NCBI GenBank assembly: GCA_903888515.1
Contig: CAISTY010000231.1
Span: 1-64,000 of the forward strand
Direction of reading: 5' to 3'
DNA length: 64,000 nt
From: Akkermansiaceae bacterium
GTDB lineage: Bacteria; Verrucomicrobiota; Verrucomicrobiia; Verrucomicrobiales; Akkermansiaceae
Part shown: positions 51,549 through 57,888 of the stretch, one piece after another
How the letters are laid out: every line of letters begins with the position of its first letter
Position numbering within the stretch: the first letter of the stretch is position 1
Position numbers and translations under genes: made by a program
Notes under the pieces: generated by a model
Database searches by the model: none
Seen by the model: the letters and a program-made list of their open reading frames with translations, nothing else
What the model was told of the DNA's origin: nothing

Positions 51549-52108
51549 TGAAATCACTCCCACTGGTCGCGCTCCTCATGCTTGGCGGGCTTTCCGCCTG
51601 CGAAAAAATCCGTAACAAAATCAGCCTGCCCGGGAAAAAACCTCCAACGGGCGCCAAGGTGTCGTTCGCCGGGCCGCTGGTGACGGAAATTCCCGAAGGA
51701 GCGTACGACGAATTCACCGCGCAGCCCGACAAGGTGGTCATCATCGATTTTTACGCCAATTGGTGCGGCCCGTGCCGCCAACTCGCACCCATCCTGGATG
51801 AAATCGCCGCTGAAAACGGCGGCACCGTCCTGATAGGAAAAGTCAACATCGATCAATTCCGCACGCTCGCCACCCGCGAGGGGGTGCACGGCATCCCTGA
51901 TGTTAGAATTTACCGCGATGGCAAAAAGGTGGACGGTTTTGTCGGCCTGCCCGACGCAAGCGAGGTCCGGCGGCGGATTGAAACCCACGTGAAGGGACTC
52001 CCCGCGCCCGTTCTGGAAACCGCCGATGCCGAACCATCCAAACCCAAGGAACCGGCCATCCAGCCGATGACCAAGGATTGGCTGCCGCCGGGCATCAAAC
52101 GCCGCTGA
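51548..52108 (+). CDS. Thioredoxin-domain lipoprotein
   Basis: GLSAC lipobox; [23 protein letters not shown]. Confidence 0.9.
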
Positions 52109-52275
52109 GACCCCCTGCGTCCGCGTCAGTGCGGCGGCCAATCACCGCTGTGGTGGCGGTGTGGGCCTGGGTTTCCGGTGTCGGACTTTGCATCCAGCCC
52201 TTTACAAGCGGCGGATTCCCTGCCAAACCCTGTCCAATTGAGCCGCCATGCCGCGCGGTCATCCCGCCTCCAACC

Positions 52276-55200
52276 ATGCCCAAAGACACATCCATCCACA
52301 AAATCCTTGTCATCGGTTCCGGTCCCATCGTGATTGGCCAAGGCTGCGAGTTCGATTACTCCGGAGTCCAGGCCTGCAAGGCGCTCAAAGAAGAAGGCTA
52401 TCAGGTCATCCTCGTGAACTCCAATCCGGCCACCATCATGACCGACCCGGAGTTCGCCCACCGCACGTATATCGAACCGATCACGCCAGAGGTCGTGGAA
52501 AAAATCATCATCCGCGAGCAACCCGATGCGCTGCTGCCCACGCTTGGCGGCCAGACGGCGCTCAACACCGCGATGGCCCTCTTCAAGTCCGGCGTCCTCG
52601 ACACCCACAAGGTACGCATGATCGGGGCTAATGCCGACGCCATCGACAAGGGCGAGAACCGCCTGCGCTTCAAAGAGGCCATGCTCAAAATCGGCCTCGA
52701 CCTGCCGCTTTCCGGTATCGCCCACACTCTGGAAGAAGCCAAAAAAGTGTCTGCGGAAATCGACCGCTTTCCGCTGATCATCCGTCCCGCATTCACCCTC
52801 GGTGGCCAGGGCGGCGGCATCGCCTATAACCGCGAGGAATTCGACGAAATCATCATTCGCGGCCTCGACCTCTCGCCCATCTCGGAAGTCCTCATCGAAG
52901 AATCCCTGCTCGGCTGGAAGGAGTTCGAAATGGAAGTCATGCGCGACTGCATGGACAACTGCGTGGTCATCTGCTCGATCGAAAATCTCGATCCCATGGG
53001 AGTCCACACCGGCGACTCGATCACCGTCGCCCCCATCCAGACTCTAACGGACAGGGAATACCAGATCATGCGCGACGCCTCGTTTGCGTGCATCCGCGAA
53101 ATCGGCGTGGAAACCGGCGGCTCTAACATCCAGTTCGCCACCGATCCCAAGACCGGCCGCATGATCATCATCGAGATGAACCCGCGCGTCTCGCGCTCGT
53201 CCGCGCTCGCCTCCAAGGCCACCGGTTTCCCGATCGCAAAAATCGCCGCCAAACTCGCCGTCGGCTATACCCTCGACGAGCTGCCTAACGACATCACCCG
53301 TGAGACGCCCGCCTCCTTCGAGCCGACCATCGACTACGTGGTCACCAAGGTGCCGCGCTTCACCTTCGAGAAGTTTCCCACCGCCAATCCGGTGCTGACC
53401 ACCTCGATGAAATCCGTGGGTGAGGCGATGGCCATCGGTCGCACCTTCAAGGAGTCCATTCAGAAATGCCTGCGCTCGTTGGAAACCGGCCGCTGGGGTT
53501 TTGGCTTCGATCCCAAGGATCCGCCAAACCCGACCCGTGACGAAATCACCCGCAAACTCCAGATCCCCAATGCCGAACGCATCTTCTGGCTGCAATCCGC
53601 CTTCACTAACGGCTGGACCATCGCAGAAGTCAACACCGCCACCGGCATCGACCCGTGGTTCCTCACCCACCTCCAAGAAATCGCCGAGGAGGGTAGCCAT
53701 CCTGGCTGCCTCGGAGGACAGGCTTCCAGCCTGCCCGAATGCACACCCTCACCCACCGACTTCCACCCCTTCACTCCAGACGAGCCGGAAACCGAAAAAT
53801 CCCGCCGCCACCTCCCACACTGGGAGCAGGAGAACGGCACGTATTTTGTCACCTTCCGCCTCGCCGATTCCATTCCCGCCATCGAACTCGCGAAACTGCG
53901 CGAAGACCTCGCCACATGGAATCAGCACCACCCTCAACCATGGGACTACCAGACCTATCAGGAATACCAACTCCGCTTCCACGATGGCCCCGAAAAATGG
54001 CTCGATGAAGGCCATGGCGAATGCCTGCTCGCCCGCCCCGAACTCCGCGCCATCGTCGCCAACGCCCTCCACCACTTCGATGGTGAGCGGTACGTGCTCG
54101 ACGCCTTGGTGATCATGCCCAACCACGTCCACGTCGTTTTCAAGCCGCTAGCCGGTCACAAGGTCAGTGAAATTCTCCATTCCTGGAAATCCTTCACGGC
54201 AAAGGAAATCAACAAGGCCGCCAATCGCACCGGCACCCTTTGGCAAGCGGAGAGCCATGATCGCATCATCCGTGATTGGGAAAATCTCGTCAATGCCCGC
54301 GCCTACATCGAACGTAACCCGGCAAAACTGCGTGATGGCACATTCACCGTCGAAATCAGCGGGAGAATAGGCGGGGGGATAGGCGGGGGGATAGGCGGGG
54401 GGATAGGCGTCCCGCCTGTCTCGGAAGACGGGCGTCCCGCCTGTTCTTCTCCACAGCAGGCTGGAAGCCCGCTGTCCGAGTCGGACGAGACGTCCAACCT
54501 CCGCCGCCGGAAGATAGGCGTCCCGCCTGTCTCGGAAGACGGGCGTCCCGCCTGTTCTTCTCCACAGCAGGCTGGAAGCCCGCTGTCCGAGTCGGACGAG
54601 ACGTCCAACCTCCGCCGCCTCAAGAAGCTCGGCTTCTCGGACCGCCAGATCGCCAAGGCCCGCGGCACCAGCGAGGACGCCATCCGCGCCCGGCGCAAGG
54701 CCGCCGGCATCATCCCGACCTACCGCCTGGTCGATACCTGCGCCGCCGAGTTTGAGGCCTGTACCCCGTATTTCTACTCGACCTATGGCGACGAGAACGA
54801 AGCCCGCGAGTCGGACAAGAAAAAAATCATCATCCTCGGCGGCGGTCCTAACAGAATCGGCCAGGGCATCGAGTTCGACTACTGTTGTGTGCACGCAGCC
54901 TTCGCCCTGAAGGAACTCGGCTATGAGACGATCATGGTGAACTCCAACCCGGAAACCGTCTCCACCGACTACGACACCTCGGACAAGCTGTTCTTCGAGC
55001 CGCTCACCCTTGAGGACGTCCTCAACATCTGCGATCAGGAACAACCCCACGGCGTCATCGTCCAGTTCGGCGGCCAAACCCCGCTCAACCTCGCAGCCGA
55101 CCTCGAACGCCACGGCGTACCCATCATCGGCACCTCCCCCAAATCCATCGAACTCGCCGAAGACCGCAAGTTCTTCTCCGCCCTGTTAGACAAACTCCAC

Positions 55201-56364
55201 CTCAAGCAGGCCGAGGCCGGCACCGCCACCAACGGGGATGAAGCGCTGCAAGTGGCCGACCGCATCGGCTACCCGGTGCTGGTCCGCCCGTCCTTCGTGT
55301 TAGGCGGCCGCGCGATGATGATCGTGTACAATGACGCCGAGCTTTCCCGCTACATGCGCGAGGCCGTCACCGCCTCGCCCGAACGCCCGGTGCTGGTGGA
55401 CCGCTTCCTCGACAACGCCACCGAGGTGGATGTCGATTGCATCAGCGACGGTGAAATCGCGGTGGTCGGAGCCATCATGGAACACATCGAGCAGGCCGGC
55501 ATCCACTCCGGCGACTCGGCCTGCGTGATCCCCTCGTTTTCCCTATCAGACTCTATCAAGGCGGAGATCACCCGCGCGGCAGGGGATCTCGCCCGCGAAC
55601 TCAAGGTCAAGGGCCTCATGAACATCCAGTTCGCGGTCAAGGACGAGGTGCTGTATGTCATCGAGGTCAACCCGCGCGCCTCGCGCACCGTGCCCTTCGT
55701 TTCCAAGGCCACCGGCGTTCCCCTCGCCAAGCTCGCCGCCAAAATCATGGTCGGCCACAAACTCAAGGATCTCGGCTTCACCGCAACCATCGTGCCGCAC
55801 CACTTCGCGGTGAAGGAAGCCGTCTTCCCGTGGAACCGCTTCCCCGGCATCGACATCGTGTTAGGCCCGGAAATGAAATCCACCGGCGAAGTCATGGGCA
55901 TCGATGCCGATTGGGGCATGGCCTATGCCAAAGCCCAGATCGCCGCCTTCAACCCGCTGCCCACCGCAGGCAATGTCTTTCTATCAGTCGCCGATTTCGA
56001 CAAAGACCGCGCCGTGCCCGTCGCCCGCGATCTGCTAGCCCTCGGCTTCACGCTCTTCTCCACTGGCGGTACCCACGCCCGCCTTGCCGCCGATGGCATT
56101 GTCAGCACACGCTTGTTCAAGCTCCACGAACAAGGCCGCCCCAACGTCCTCGACATGCTCAAAAACCAAGCGATCCACTTCGTCATCAACACCCCCAGCA
56201 CCCACGAAACCCGCGAGGACGAAATCCGCATCCGCTCCCTCGCCATCACTCGCAAAATCTCCCACGCCACCAACCTGTCGGCCGCCGAGGCCTCGGTCAA
56301 AGCCATCCGCTCGCTCAAAACCCGCGAACTCACCGTCATGAGCATCCAGGAATATCATGCATAA
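52276..56364 (+). CDS. carB: Carbamoyl-phosphate synthase large subunit, interrupted in frame by a RAYT insertion (1,362 aa total)
   Basis: [37 protein letters not shown]...; second half [31 protein letters not shown]; one continuous open frame with Y1-transposase sequence in the middle. Confidence 0.97.
54364..54412 (+). repeat. 12-bp G-rich tandem repeat (ataggcgggggg) encoding IGGG
   Basis: agaataggcggggggataggcggggggataggcggggggataggcgt. Confidence 0.9.
54403..54621 (+). repeat. Tandem direct duplication, 111-bp (37-codon) period, REP-like palindromes inside
   Basis: [35 protein letters not shown] occurs twice, nearly identical at DNA level. Confidence 0.95.
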
Positions 56365-56478
56365 GGCGTTGTTTTTGAAAAAACCGACCGAAATTGACGT
56401 TTTTACAAAAATGTTCAAAAGAACAAATTACTTGCCAATTTCCCTGGATTTGCCAATCTCAATCTGAATTTCAACGGC

Positions 56479-57888
56479 ATGAGTGAAAGCGAGCCAGCTC
56501 TCAAGGAACGAGGCAAGGTCATCCGTGATCCGGTTCATGGCTTGATCCCGCTTCGCCCAGATGAAACCTATCTCCTCGCCCTCATCAATACACCCGAGTT
56601 TCAACGCCTAAGGCGCGTCCGCCAGCTCGGCGTTAGCAATATCACTTATCCAGGTGCCGAGCACACCCGCTTTGCCCACAGTTTGGGCGTTATGTGCTTT
56701 GCCGGGCGGATTCTCGACCATCTCAGGTTGCGTTACAGAACTCACGTCGAAATCATTGGCCTTATCAATGACCACGAAAAAACCATAAAGGCGGCGGCGC
56801 TCCTTCACGATACAGGCCATGGACCGTTTTCTCATGCAATCGAACGTGCATTTCGCGCCACCGCCAGCCACGAACGCCGGACCGCTTTGATTATCACTGA
56901 TCCCGCATCGAAAGTGAACGAGGTTCTCAGGTGCCAACAGATCGATCCAGACCAAGTTCGCGCCGTAATCGACGGAACATTTCCCGTTCACTTCCTTCGT
57001 GACATCGTGTCGAGCCAACTCGATGCGGACCGCATGGACTATCTCCTGCGTGACACTCTCATGACGGGTGTGGAATACGGGCGTTACGATGCCGAGTGGA
57101 TCATCCATGCCCTCTGCCTCGGCCTTGATCCGATCCAACCACGCGACTTGAGGAATCCCCGTCACCTGCGTCTTTGCCTCGACCGCTCACGCGGGGTGCA
57201 TGCAGCGGAACAACTCATCGTGGCCCGCATGCACATGAGCTATCAGGTTTATTACCACCGCGTGACGCGGGGATGGGAGGCTCACCTGCTCTGCATGTTC
57301 CGCCTCGCTCACGAATTAGCTGTTAGCGGGCTGCTCCCCGTATCCACTCCAAAGGTAGTTTCCGCCTTCTTCCGGCAGGATGGTGCGTTGGAACACTCCG
57401 CTTTTCTCGCTTTCGATGAACCTCAAATGATCTCCGCATTCCATGCATGGGCGGATCATGTAGGGGCTGATGAAAACACCCGAAAACTCTGTGAACTCGC
57501 ATCCGCATTCCTGCGACGCCGAAAACTTTTCGGGACCACGGAAATTCCCGGCTCGGATCCCATGCAGGCATCCTACGAAAAACTGCTCAGCCTCAAAGAC
57601 TCTGGCAAAATAGAAGGAGTGGATTACTACCACGACAATGCCCGTTTCAAAGGCTACAAAGATTTCGGCAGTTCCGTGGTCCACGAGGGAACTGATGAAG
57701 ATCCTCTGGTGGATGGATCGGAAGGAATTTTCCTAGCGGATGGCGAACCCTATTCCCATTCCACCATTCCCGTAGAAAAAGACAGCAGGGCGCTCATCGC
57801 TCCCGCGCTTATCAGACGTGACATGGTACCTCTAAACCGGGTTTTCGAACTCATCCACCCTTCCTGCCAAATGGCCCCTTGTAATTAA
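56479..57888 (+). CDS. HD-superfamily phosphohydrolase (YwfO-like)
   Basis: KVIRDPVHGLIPL...LINTPEFQRLRRVRQLGVSNITYPGAEHTRFAHSLGVM...AALLHDTGHGPFSHAIE. Confidence 0.9.
   Translation: MSESEPALKERGKVIRDPVHGLIPLRPDETYLLALINTPEFQRLRRVRQLGVSNITYPGAEHTRFAHSLGVMCFAGRILDHLRLRYRTHVEIIGLINDHEKTIKAAALLHDTGHGPFSHAIERAFRATASHERRTALIITDPASKVNEVLRCQQIDPDQVRAVIDGTFPVHFLRDIVSSQLDADRMDYLLRDTLMTGVEYGRYDAEWIIHALCLGLDPIQPRDLRNPRHLRLCLDRSRGVHAAEQLIVARMHMSYQVYYHRVTRGWEAHLLCMFRLAHELAVSGLLPVSTPKVVSAFFRQDGALEHSAFLAFDEPQMISAFHAWADHVGADENTRKLCELASAFLRRRKLFGTTEIPGSDPMQASYEKLLSLKDSGKIEGVDYYHDNARFKGYKDFGSSVVHEGTDEDPLVDGSEGIFLADGEPYSHSTIPVEKDSRALIAPALIRRDMVPLNRVFELIHPSCQMAPCN

Follow-up and report, generated by a model that had tools for sequence, protein, structure and literature searches.

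A REP-associated tyrosine transposase nested in frame within carB of an Akkermansiaceae bacterium, with related inserts in other housekeeping genes

We analyzed a stretch of 64,000 nucleotides from contig CAISTY010000231.1 of an uncultured Akkermansiaceae bacterium of the Verrucomicrobiota (hereafter, the window), in which a whole, apparently functional REP-associated tyrosine transposase (RAYT) of the Y1 type lies in frame inside carB, the gene for the large subunit of carbamoyl-phosphate synthase. A sequence-only reading had claimed this nesting, and the sequence, profile searches, predicted fold and uninterrupted alleles of relatives all agree with it. The same reading offered a tolerated insertion or a domesticated fusion as its explanation, a choice that misses a recurrent, host-gene-specific, REP-flanked element with rapid turnover at fixed sites. 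The insert is probably a genic REP-RAYT element, intein-like and non-splicing, that is translated within a functional host enzyme which guards its frame and supplies its expression.

The carB gene was confirmed as a single open frame of 1362 aa with a nested RAYT. The frame, the insert and the encoded domain are as follows.
52276 to 56364, plus strand: carB open frame, carbamoyl-phosphate synthase large subunit (open frame, Pfam and NCBIfam domains).
52276 to 53694, plus strand: host part 1, the N-terminal synthetase half and the start of the oligomerisation domain, to ...LQEIAEEG (Gly473) (uninterrupted-carB alignment; Pfam CPSase_L_D3 at 427-471).
53695 to 54609, plus strand: in-frame insert of 915 nt (305 codons), where alleles without it have roughly 8 other codons (xxLAxLD) (comparison with relatives).
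53803 to 54327, plus strand: RAYT (HUH-Y1) core domain (profile match, E 5.4e-89; fold match 4er8).
54115 to 54132, plus strand: HUH motif MPNHVH, residues 614-619 (sequence; H columns invariant in the RAYT profile alignment A1).
54304 to 54306, plus strand: putative catalytic Tyr677, in AYIERNP (sequence; Tyr column invariant in A1).
54610 to 56364, plus strand: host part 2, the remaining oligomerisation domain, the second synthetase half and the MGS domain (Pfam; uninterrupted-carB alignment).

The insert was bounded by alignment with uninterrupted carB of relatives. It follows Gly473, whose codon ends at 53694, and is followed by the Leu codon at 54610, in agreement with the coordinates first proposed and with the estimate of about residue 473. 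The uninterrupted allele reads QIAEEG and then about 8 residues (xxLAxLD); the window reads EIAEEG and then 305 residues. The proposed location in the oligomerisation domain was also correct, as the PF02787 match ends at residue 471 of the frame and the equivalent point in E. coli CarB lies between residues 470 and 488. Both junctions preserve the frame, without a frameshift or stop at either, and the 915-nt insert has zero in-frame stops. Across the 933-nt stretch 53686-54618, the other five frames carry 2-11 stops each, and 18 of 5000 Markov resamples of this stretch remained open. No in-frame ATG, GTG or TTG was found from 60 codons upstream of the RAYT domain to codon 607 inside it, which rules out a separate start ahead of the domain. 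Thus, the window RAYT has neither a translation start nor a stop of its own.

NCBIfam models detected two CarB stretches in the 1362-aa frame (PRK05294.1, 1660.8 bits; TIGR01369) with NF047646, the model for REP-associated tyrosine transposases, between them. The RAYT core has 176 residues and carries HxH and a downstream Tyr within a Y1 fold family; the motifs MPNHVH and AYIERNP had already been recognized correctly from the letters. Its assignment to the RAYT/Y1 profiles held for Pfam Y1_Tnp (PF01797; 27.3 against a cut-off of 23) but not for NF047646, where it scored below the curated cut-off, so the window domain is classed as RAYT-like, without equivalog status (62.9 vs 80 bits). Nested RAYTs elsewhere exceeded that cut-off (L010, 116.3 bits; L221, 81.4 bits).

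We predicted the structure of residues 395-853 with AlphaFold, using these residues plus 38 relatives (alignment A2). The RAYT core had a pLDDT mostly above 90, the right linker was at about 30, and the flanking oligomerisation helices were intact at 80-95. The first-ranked PDB match of the RAYT in Foldseek was 4er8, a RAYT on a REP hairpin (E 1.2e-5), and the flanking helices matched CarB structures in the PDB. The RAYT is thus predicted to be a pendant domain that leaves the flanking helices undisturbed. Its linkers are variable, low-complexity translations of REP sequence that are unconserved among the relatives in A2.

The ends of the insert are formed by REP sequences, with these features.
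53683 to 53734, plus strand: left REP; it pairs at 71% complementarity with the right arms as a 52-nt inverted repeat and contains GTAG at 53693-53696 and two hairpins.
54359 to 54406, plus strand: 12-nt G-rich tandem repeat, encoding GGGI repeats.
54395 to 54505, plus strand: right REP unit, first copy, 111 nt or 37 codons.
54456 to 54507, plus strand: right inverted-repeat arm, first.
54506 to 54616, plus strand: right REP unit, second copy, a 97% identical in-frame tandem duplication.
54567 to 54618, plus strand: right inverted-repeat arm, second.

The left arm pairs with two right arms because the right REP unit is tandemly duplicated. The three REP pieces of the window that we tested folded into hairpins better than shuffled sequences (z -2.2 to -3.8), and the right unit had 27 matches across its own genome; flanking REP hairpins and dispersed genomic REPs, both typical of RAYTs, are therefore present. 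The carB of G001 has the same end anatomy, with a 49-nt inverted repeat at 78%, and the leuS inserts of G010, G018, G030 and G031 end in inverted repeats of 25-32 nt (97-100%). GTAG adjoins a hairpin at the left end in the window, and CTAC occurs at the right end in the carB of G001 and G010; the window's right end is CTCC, and the leuS REPs begin TCAAGGAG. In a further carB (L095), 123-nt REP units are spaced 726 nt apart, a multiple of three. REP unit lengths and spacings were multiples of three at all four sites measured, and loss or gain by REP exchange would therefore keep the host frame.

REP sequences were also translated in other frames, and the 27 genomic matches include in-frame REP-only inserts in mutS and in a purL-like gene. 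On contig C135 of the window's genome (G000), mutS (L014, 1564-4425, minus strand) has an in-frame REP-only insert (GTGVPPVTDDGRPAS...ETSNLR) that matches the right REP unit from carB at 82% DNA identity. On contig C96 of the same genome (L267, about 1976-2018), a REP is translated in frame in an apparently purL-like gene, judged by peptide inspection. In the leuS of G036 (L068), the right REP of the RAYT has grown by in-frame 30-nt tandem repeats (VGGTPTLLEH).

Of 58 other relatives, five (G001, G010, G016, G055 and G058; three of the same genus and two of another family) had a RAYT at the identical carB site, as did four named MAGs (L095, L096, L097 and L151), Chthoniobacterales included. 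REP-only inserts of about 10-36 residues occupy the site in G014, G015, G017, G018, G019, G023, G029 and G036, and others have the uninterrupted loop. The carB genes of G028, G009 and G027 (L057, L060 and L039) hold an insert of another, non-REP kind, about 33 residues long, that lies a few residues beyond the RAYT site on its downstream side. In the single-contig genome G004, carB (L065) is split into two frames of 711 and 474 aa, by a frameshift or a sequencing error. The genome bin of the window contains a second, uninterrupted carB on contig C33 (L016, 3081-6296, minus strand), a 1072-aa frame with 51-53% identity. The GC content and tetranucleotide make-up of C33 resemble those of the window, and this carB type was found in no other member of the genus; it may be a real paralogue, or it may be of foreign origin or mis-binned.

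We searched 41 genomes of the genus with the RAYT profile (A1). The 127 matches fell into two size classes, 63 in frames of 400 aa or more and 64 in frames of 320 aa or less, with none between. Grouping of the fetched genus and order frames by their flanks gave ispG (19), metH (18), leuS (13), carB (6), alaS (6) and smaller groups. NCBIfam confirmed metH, ispG, alaS, recG, leuS, valS, xseA and the CCA-transferase gene as hosts, together with genes for a DinG/YoaA-type helicase, a TsaC/Sua5-type protein and adenosine deaminase; flank similarity or inspection added hsdR-like, Eco57I-type methylase, NUDIX, glycosyltransferase and other genes. In an even sample of the phylum, 21 of 96 genomes had a match at E<=1e-40, and the RAYT group is therefore patchy there. 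Named genomes widened the spread to Chthoniobacterales, Planctomycetota, Kiritimatiellota, Bacteroidota, Ignavibacteriota and Chloroflexota.

The hosts were commonly the only copy detected, which in these mostly draft MAGs is what single copy means. A single leuS was detected in the leuS-RAYT genomes, and a single ispG in the ispG-RAYT genomes checked (the ispG of G000 is broken by a contig end). Since a missing aminoacyl-tRNA synthetase in a dozen genomes is not credible, RAYT-bearing single-copy genes would most simply encode functional enzymes. The suggestion that enzyme and nuclease share one polypeptide gains from the same architecture in single-copy leuS, ispG and carB and is the most economical reading; the chain would then be uncleaved.

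Several further frames were unusual. On contig C107 of the window's genome, metH (L010, 2715-7070, minus strand; 1452 codons) contains two in-frame RAYT domains from different branches of the RAYT tree. A record titled Gammaproteobacteria bacterium (L098) has an adenosine-deaminase-type frame with a nested RAYT near the verrucomicrobial ones, through either transfer or a mis-binned contig. The leuS genes of G015 (L291) and G005 (L292) carry unrelated non-REP inserts at the RAYT site, and this loop is therefore a general hotspot for length change.

We built trees of the RAYT domains and of the hosts by quick searches, with SH-aLRT as the only support values. RAYT domains clustered by host gene far more than chance: the numbers of rows and changes were 21 and 2 for ispG, 19 and 2 for metH, 14 and 3 for leuS, and 10 and 3 for carB, with one change each for adenosine deaminase (ADA), hsdR and cca, against chance means of 3-20. 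The four carB RAYTs of the genus formed one clade (support 96), and at least two RAYT lineages occupied the leuS site. Two NUDIX-associated RAYTs fell within the carB group, which suggests that RAYTs may occasionally move to a new gene. In the host trees, RAYT-bearing alleles were scattered, with 8 changes in carB (AU p 2.4e-10 against one clade) and 9 in leuS (AU p 3.1e-30), the latter no fewer than with shuffled labels. The presence of a RAYT in leuS differed even between the very close sisters G007/G031 and G015/G017. The leuS alleles of G001 and G030 align at 93% and 87% on the two flanks of the site; G001 carries just a REP pair there and G030 a REP-RAYT-REP pair. The G030 allele contains a direct REP repeat spaced 627 nt (209 codons), and deletion between its copies would remove the RAYT without a frame change and yield what G001 has, unless the change ran the other way.

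Nested RAYTs are under selection. In same-genus carB pairs, pN of the RAYT was 0.17-0.23 against a saturated pS of 0.71-0.82, so that the ratio is a bound, and host codons had a pN of 0.04-0.05 against a pS of 0.37-0.69. The picture was the same in leuS and ispG, with median RAYT pN/pS of 0.37 and 0.39. HxH was intact in 123 of 123 nested domains and the Tyr in 122. The exception, in the ispG of G029 (L238), lacks the catalytic Tyr while its host frame is open, and is a natural inactivated passenger. Host selection can purge stops and frameshifts, not missense changes of a passenger, and the conserved HxH and Tyr therefore point to selection on the chemistry of the RAYT itself.

An old vertical insertion is the strongest rival, though we regard it as unlikely. 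One RAYT would have entered each host gene long ago, and patchiness would reflect losses, by deletion leaving REPs or by replacement with the uninterrupted allele of a relative; the RAYT would be a passenger with no homing now. Between genomes, RAYTs have diverged at synonymous sites no less than their hosts: the saturated RAYT pS (about 0.77) is not below the host pS (0.37-0.73) in any carB pair, and no recent carB RAYT transfer was seen among the sampled genomes, at synonymous sites that are saturated. The single carB clade of the genus and the resemblance of REP-only alleles to deletion products also favor this history. However, uninterrupted carB retains the approximately 8 ancestral codons that the insert replaces, and simple excision cannot restore them. 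The chance-level clustering of RAYT-bearing leuS alleles on the host tree and the multiple lineages at the leuS site likewise argue against an old single insertion.

RAYTs elsewhere are considered domesticated, and a host could have recruited one for a useful property of CarB, LeuRS, IspG or others, such as regulation or DNA binding. That background, the purifying selection on the RAYT and its persistence in housekeeping genes fit such a fusion, which we nevertheless judge very unlikely: leuS RAYT presence flips between close sisters, the hosts are unrelated and include restriction enzymes and helicases, so that a common host function is hard to see, and the linkers are variable, low-complexity and REP-encoded.

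Removal of the insert before the enzyme acts, through protein splicing or cleavage, RNA splicing or ribosomal bypassing, is more improbable still. The intein-like distribution and the REP hairpins that would sit in the mRNA speak for it. Against it, no Hint or intein domain matched the insert in Pfam at E<=1, and a Rfam search of 52000-56500 gave no group I/II intron or other credible match, with two weak microRNA-model matches on a REP hairpin far under the cut-off; an intein or intron was rejected on these grounds. The unconserved linkers and the predicted pendant position beside undisturbed helices agree with that rejection. A decaying allele buffered by a second carB, or an assembly chimera, can practically be set aside: the uninterrupted C33 copy partly bears out an earlier worry about a second intact carB, but the host codons of the window copy are under strong purifying selection (pN 0.05 vs pS 0.37-0.69) and are not those of a decaying pseudogene, no other carB was detected in the five other carB-RAYT genomes, and the same architecture recurs in many independent assemblies, including the metH of the single-contig G004.

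For the genic REP-RAYT element, we propose the following. The ribosome would translate straight across the insert, and CarB would be a single polypeptide of about 150 kDa. Its HUH-Y1 nuclease would fold separately and hang by disordered, REP-encoded linkers off a loop of the oligomerisation domain that the enzyme tolerates. Because the RAYT has no start or stop, carB would supply its expression. Selection on the enzyme would purge frameshifts and nonsense mutations from the RAYT, and element-level selection would keep it functional. The RAYT presumably nicks and rejoins single-stranded DNA at REP hairpins and so mobilizes both REP units and its own gene, and REP-REP exchange could remove or add it with the host frame intact. 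Like inteins that do not splice, RAYT lineages would each keep to a single host gene and a fixed position in it (carB, leuS, ispG, metH and alaS, among others) and would have been gained or lost repeatedly. More tentatively, and with somewhat less than even confidence, these RAYTs may be mobile elements of a class of their own, intein-like but free of splicing. Such elements would settle at fixed essential-gene sites through REP-directed, frame-locked allelic homing, would rely on the host enzyme for a promoter, a start codon and protection of their frame, and would give rise from there to non-autonomous REP pairs.

The element shares with known RAYT/TnpA-REP systems, REPtrons and REPINs the HUH-Y1 core with HxH and Tyr, inverted flanking REPs, dispersed REP copies, non-autonomous REP pairs and a fold nearest 4er8. 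Known RAYTs are free-standing genes, whereas here the RAYT lacks a start and a stop, lies as a domain inside housekeeping enzymes and falls into lineages that follow the host gene. IS200/IS605 TnpA has the Y1 HUH superfamily and terminal hairpins in common with it, but sequence and best fold match lie on the RAYT side, the REP repeats are inverted, and no TnpB was seen in the insert. Like inteins with homing endonucleases, the inserts occupy fixed positions within the reading frames of conserved and often essential genes; they cluster by host gene, are patchily distributed and carry a nuclease. Unlike inteins, they have no splicing domain, are flanked by REPs, encode HUH-Y1 rather than LAGLIDADG/HNH, and are apparently carried permanently; the likeness is one of way of life only.

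Intragenic REPs and Rickettsia palindromic elements are likewise in-frame palindromes in ORFs, but here a whole transposase lies inside. The carB insert is neither short nor transposase-free, and G019, G023 and further genomes have short REP-only forms at this site. In the parts consulted of the report on intragenic GTAG/CGTC REPs, palindromic repeats lie in frame inside ORFs, their inserts encode 20-30 aa (up to 82 aa) without a transposase, the verrucomicrobium Opitutus terrae is the richest case on record (uvrA, DNA ligase), and whole-RAYT inserts are not mentioned (Di Nocera 2013, PMC3733652). Our literature search, in which subscription papers and preprints were thinly covered, turned up short intragenic REPs but no housekeeping gene with a whole RAYT in its frame.

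Mobile elements that land in housekeeping genes normally kill the host or decay. Across this phylum, a transposase with conserved active-site residues has lasted inside genes for LeuRS, IspG, CarB and other enzymes of which no second copy was detected. Host genes of this kind may be misannotated as transposases, split genes or chimeras, and they form a natural catalogue of essential-enzyme loops that accept a folded domain of 180 residues. If the proposed reading is true, an essential gene would be a shelter for a selfish element, in which loss-of-function mutations are purged without protein splicing, and the finding would connect RAYTs with intragenic REPs and inteins.
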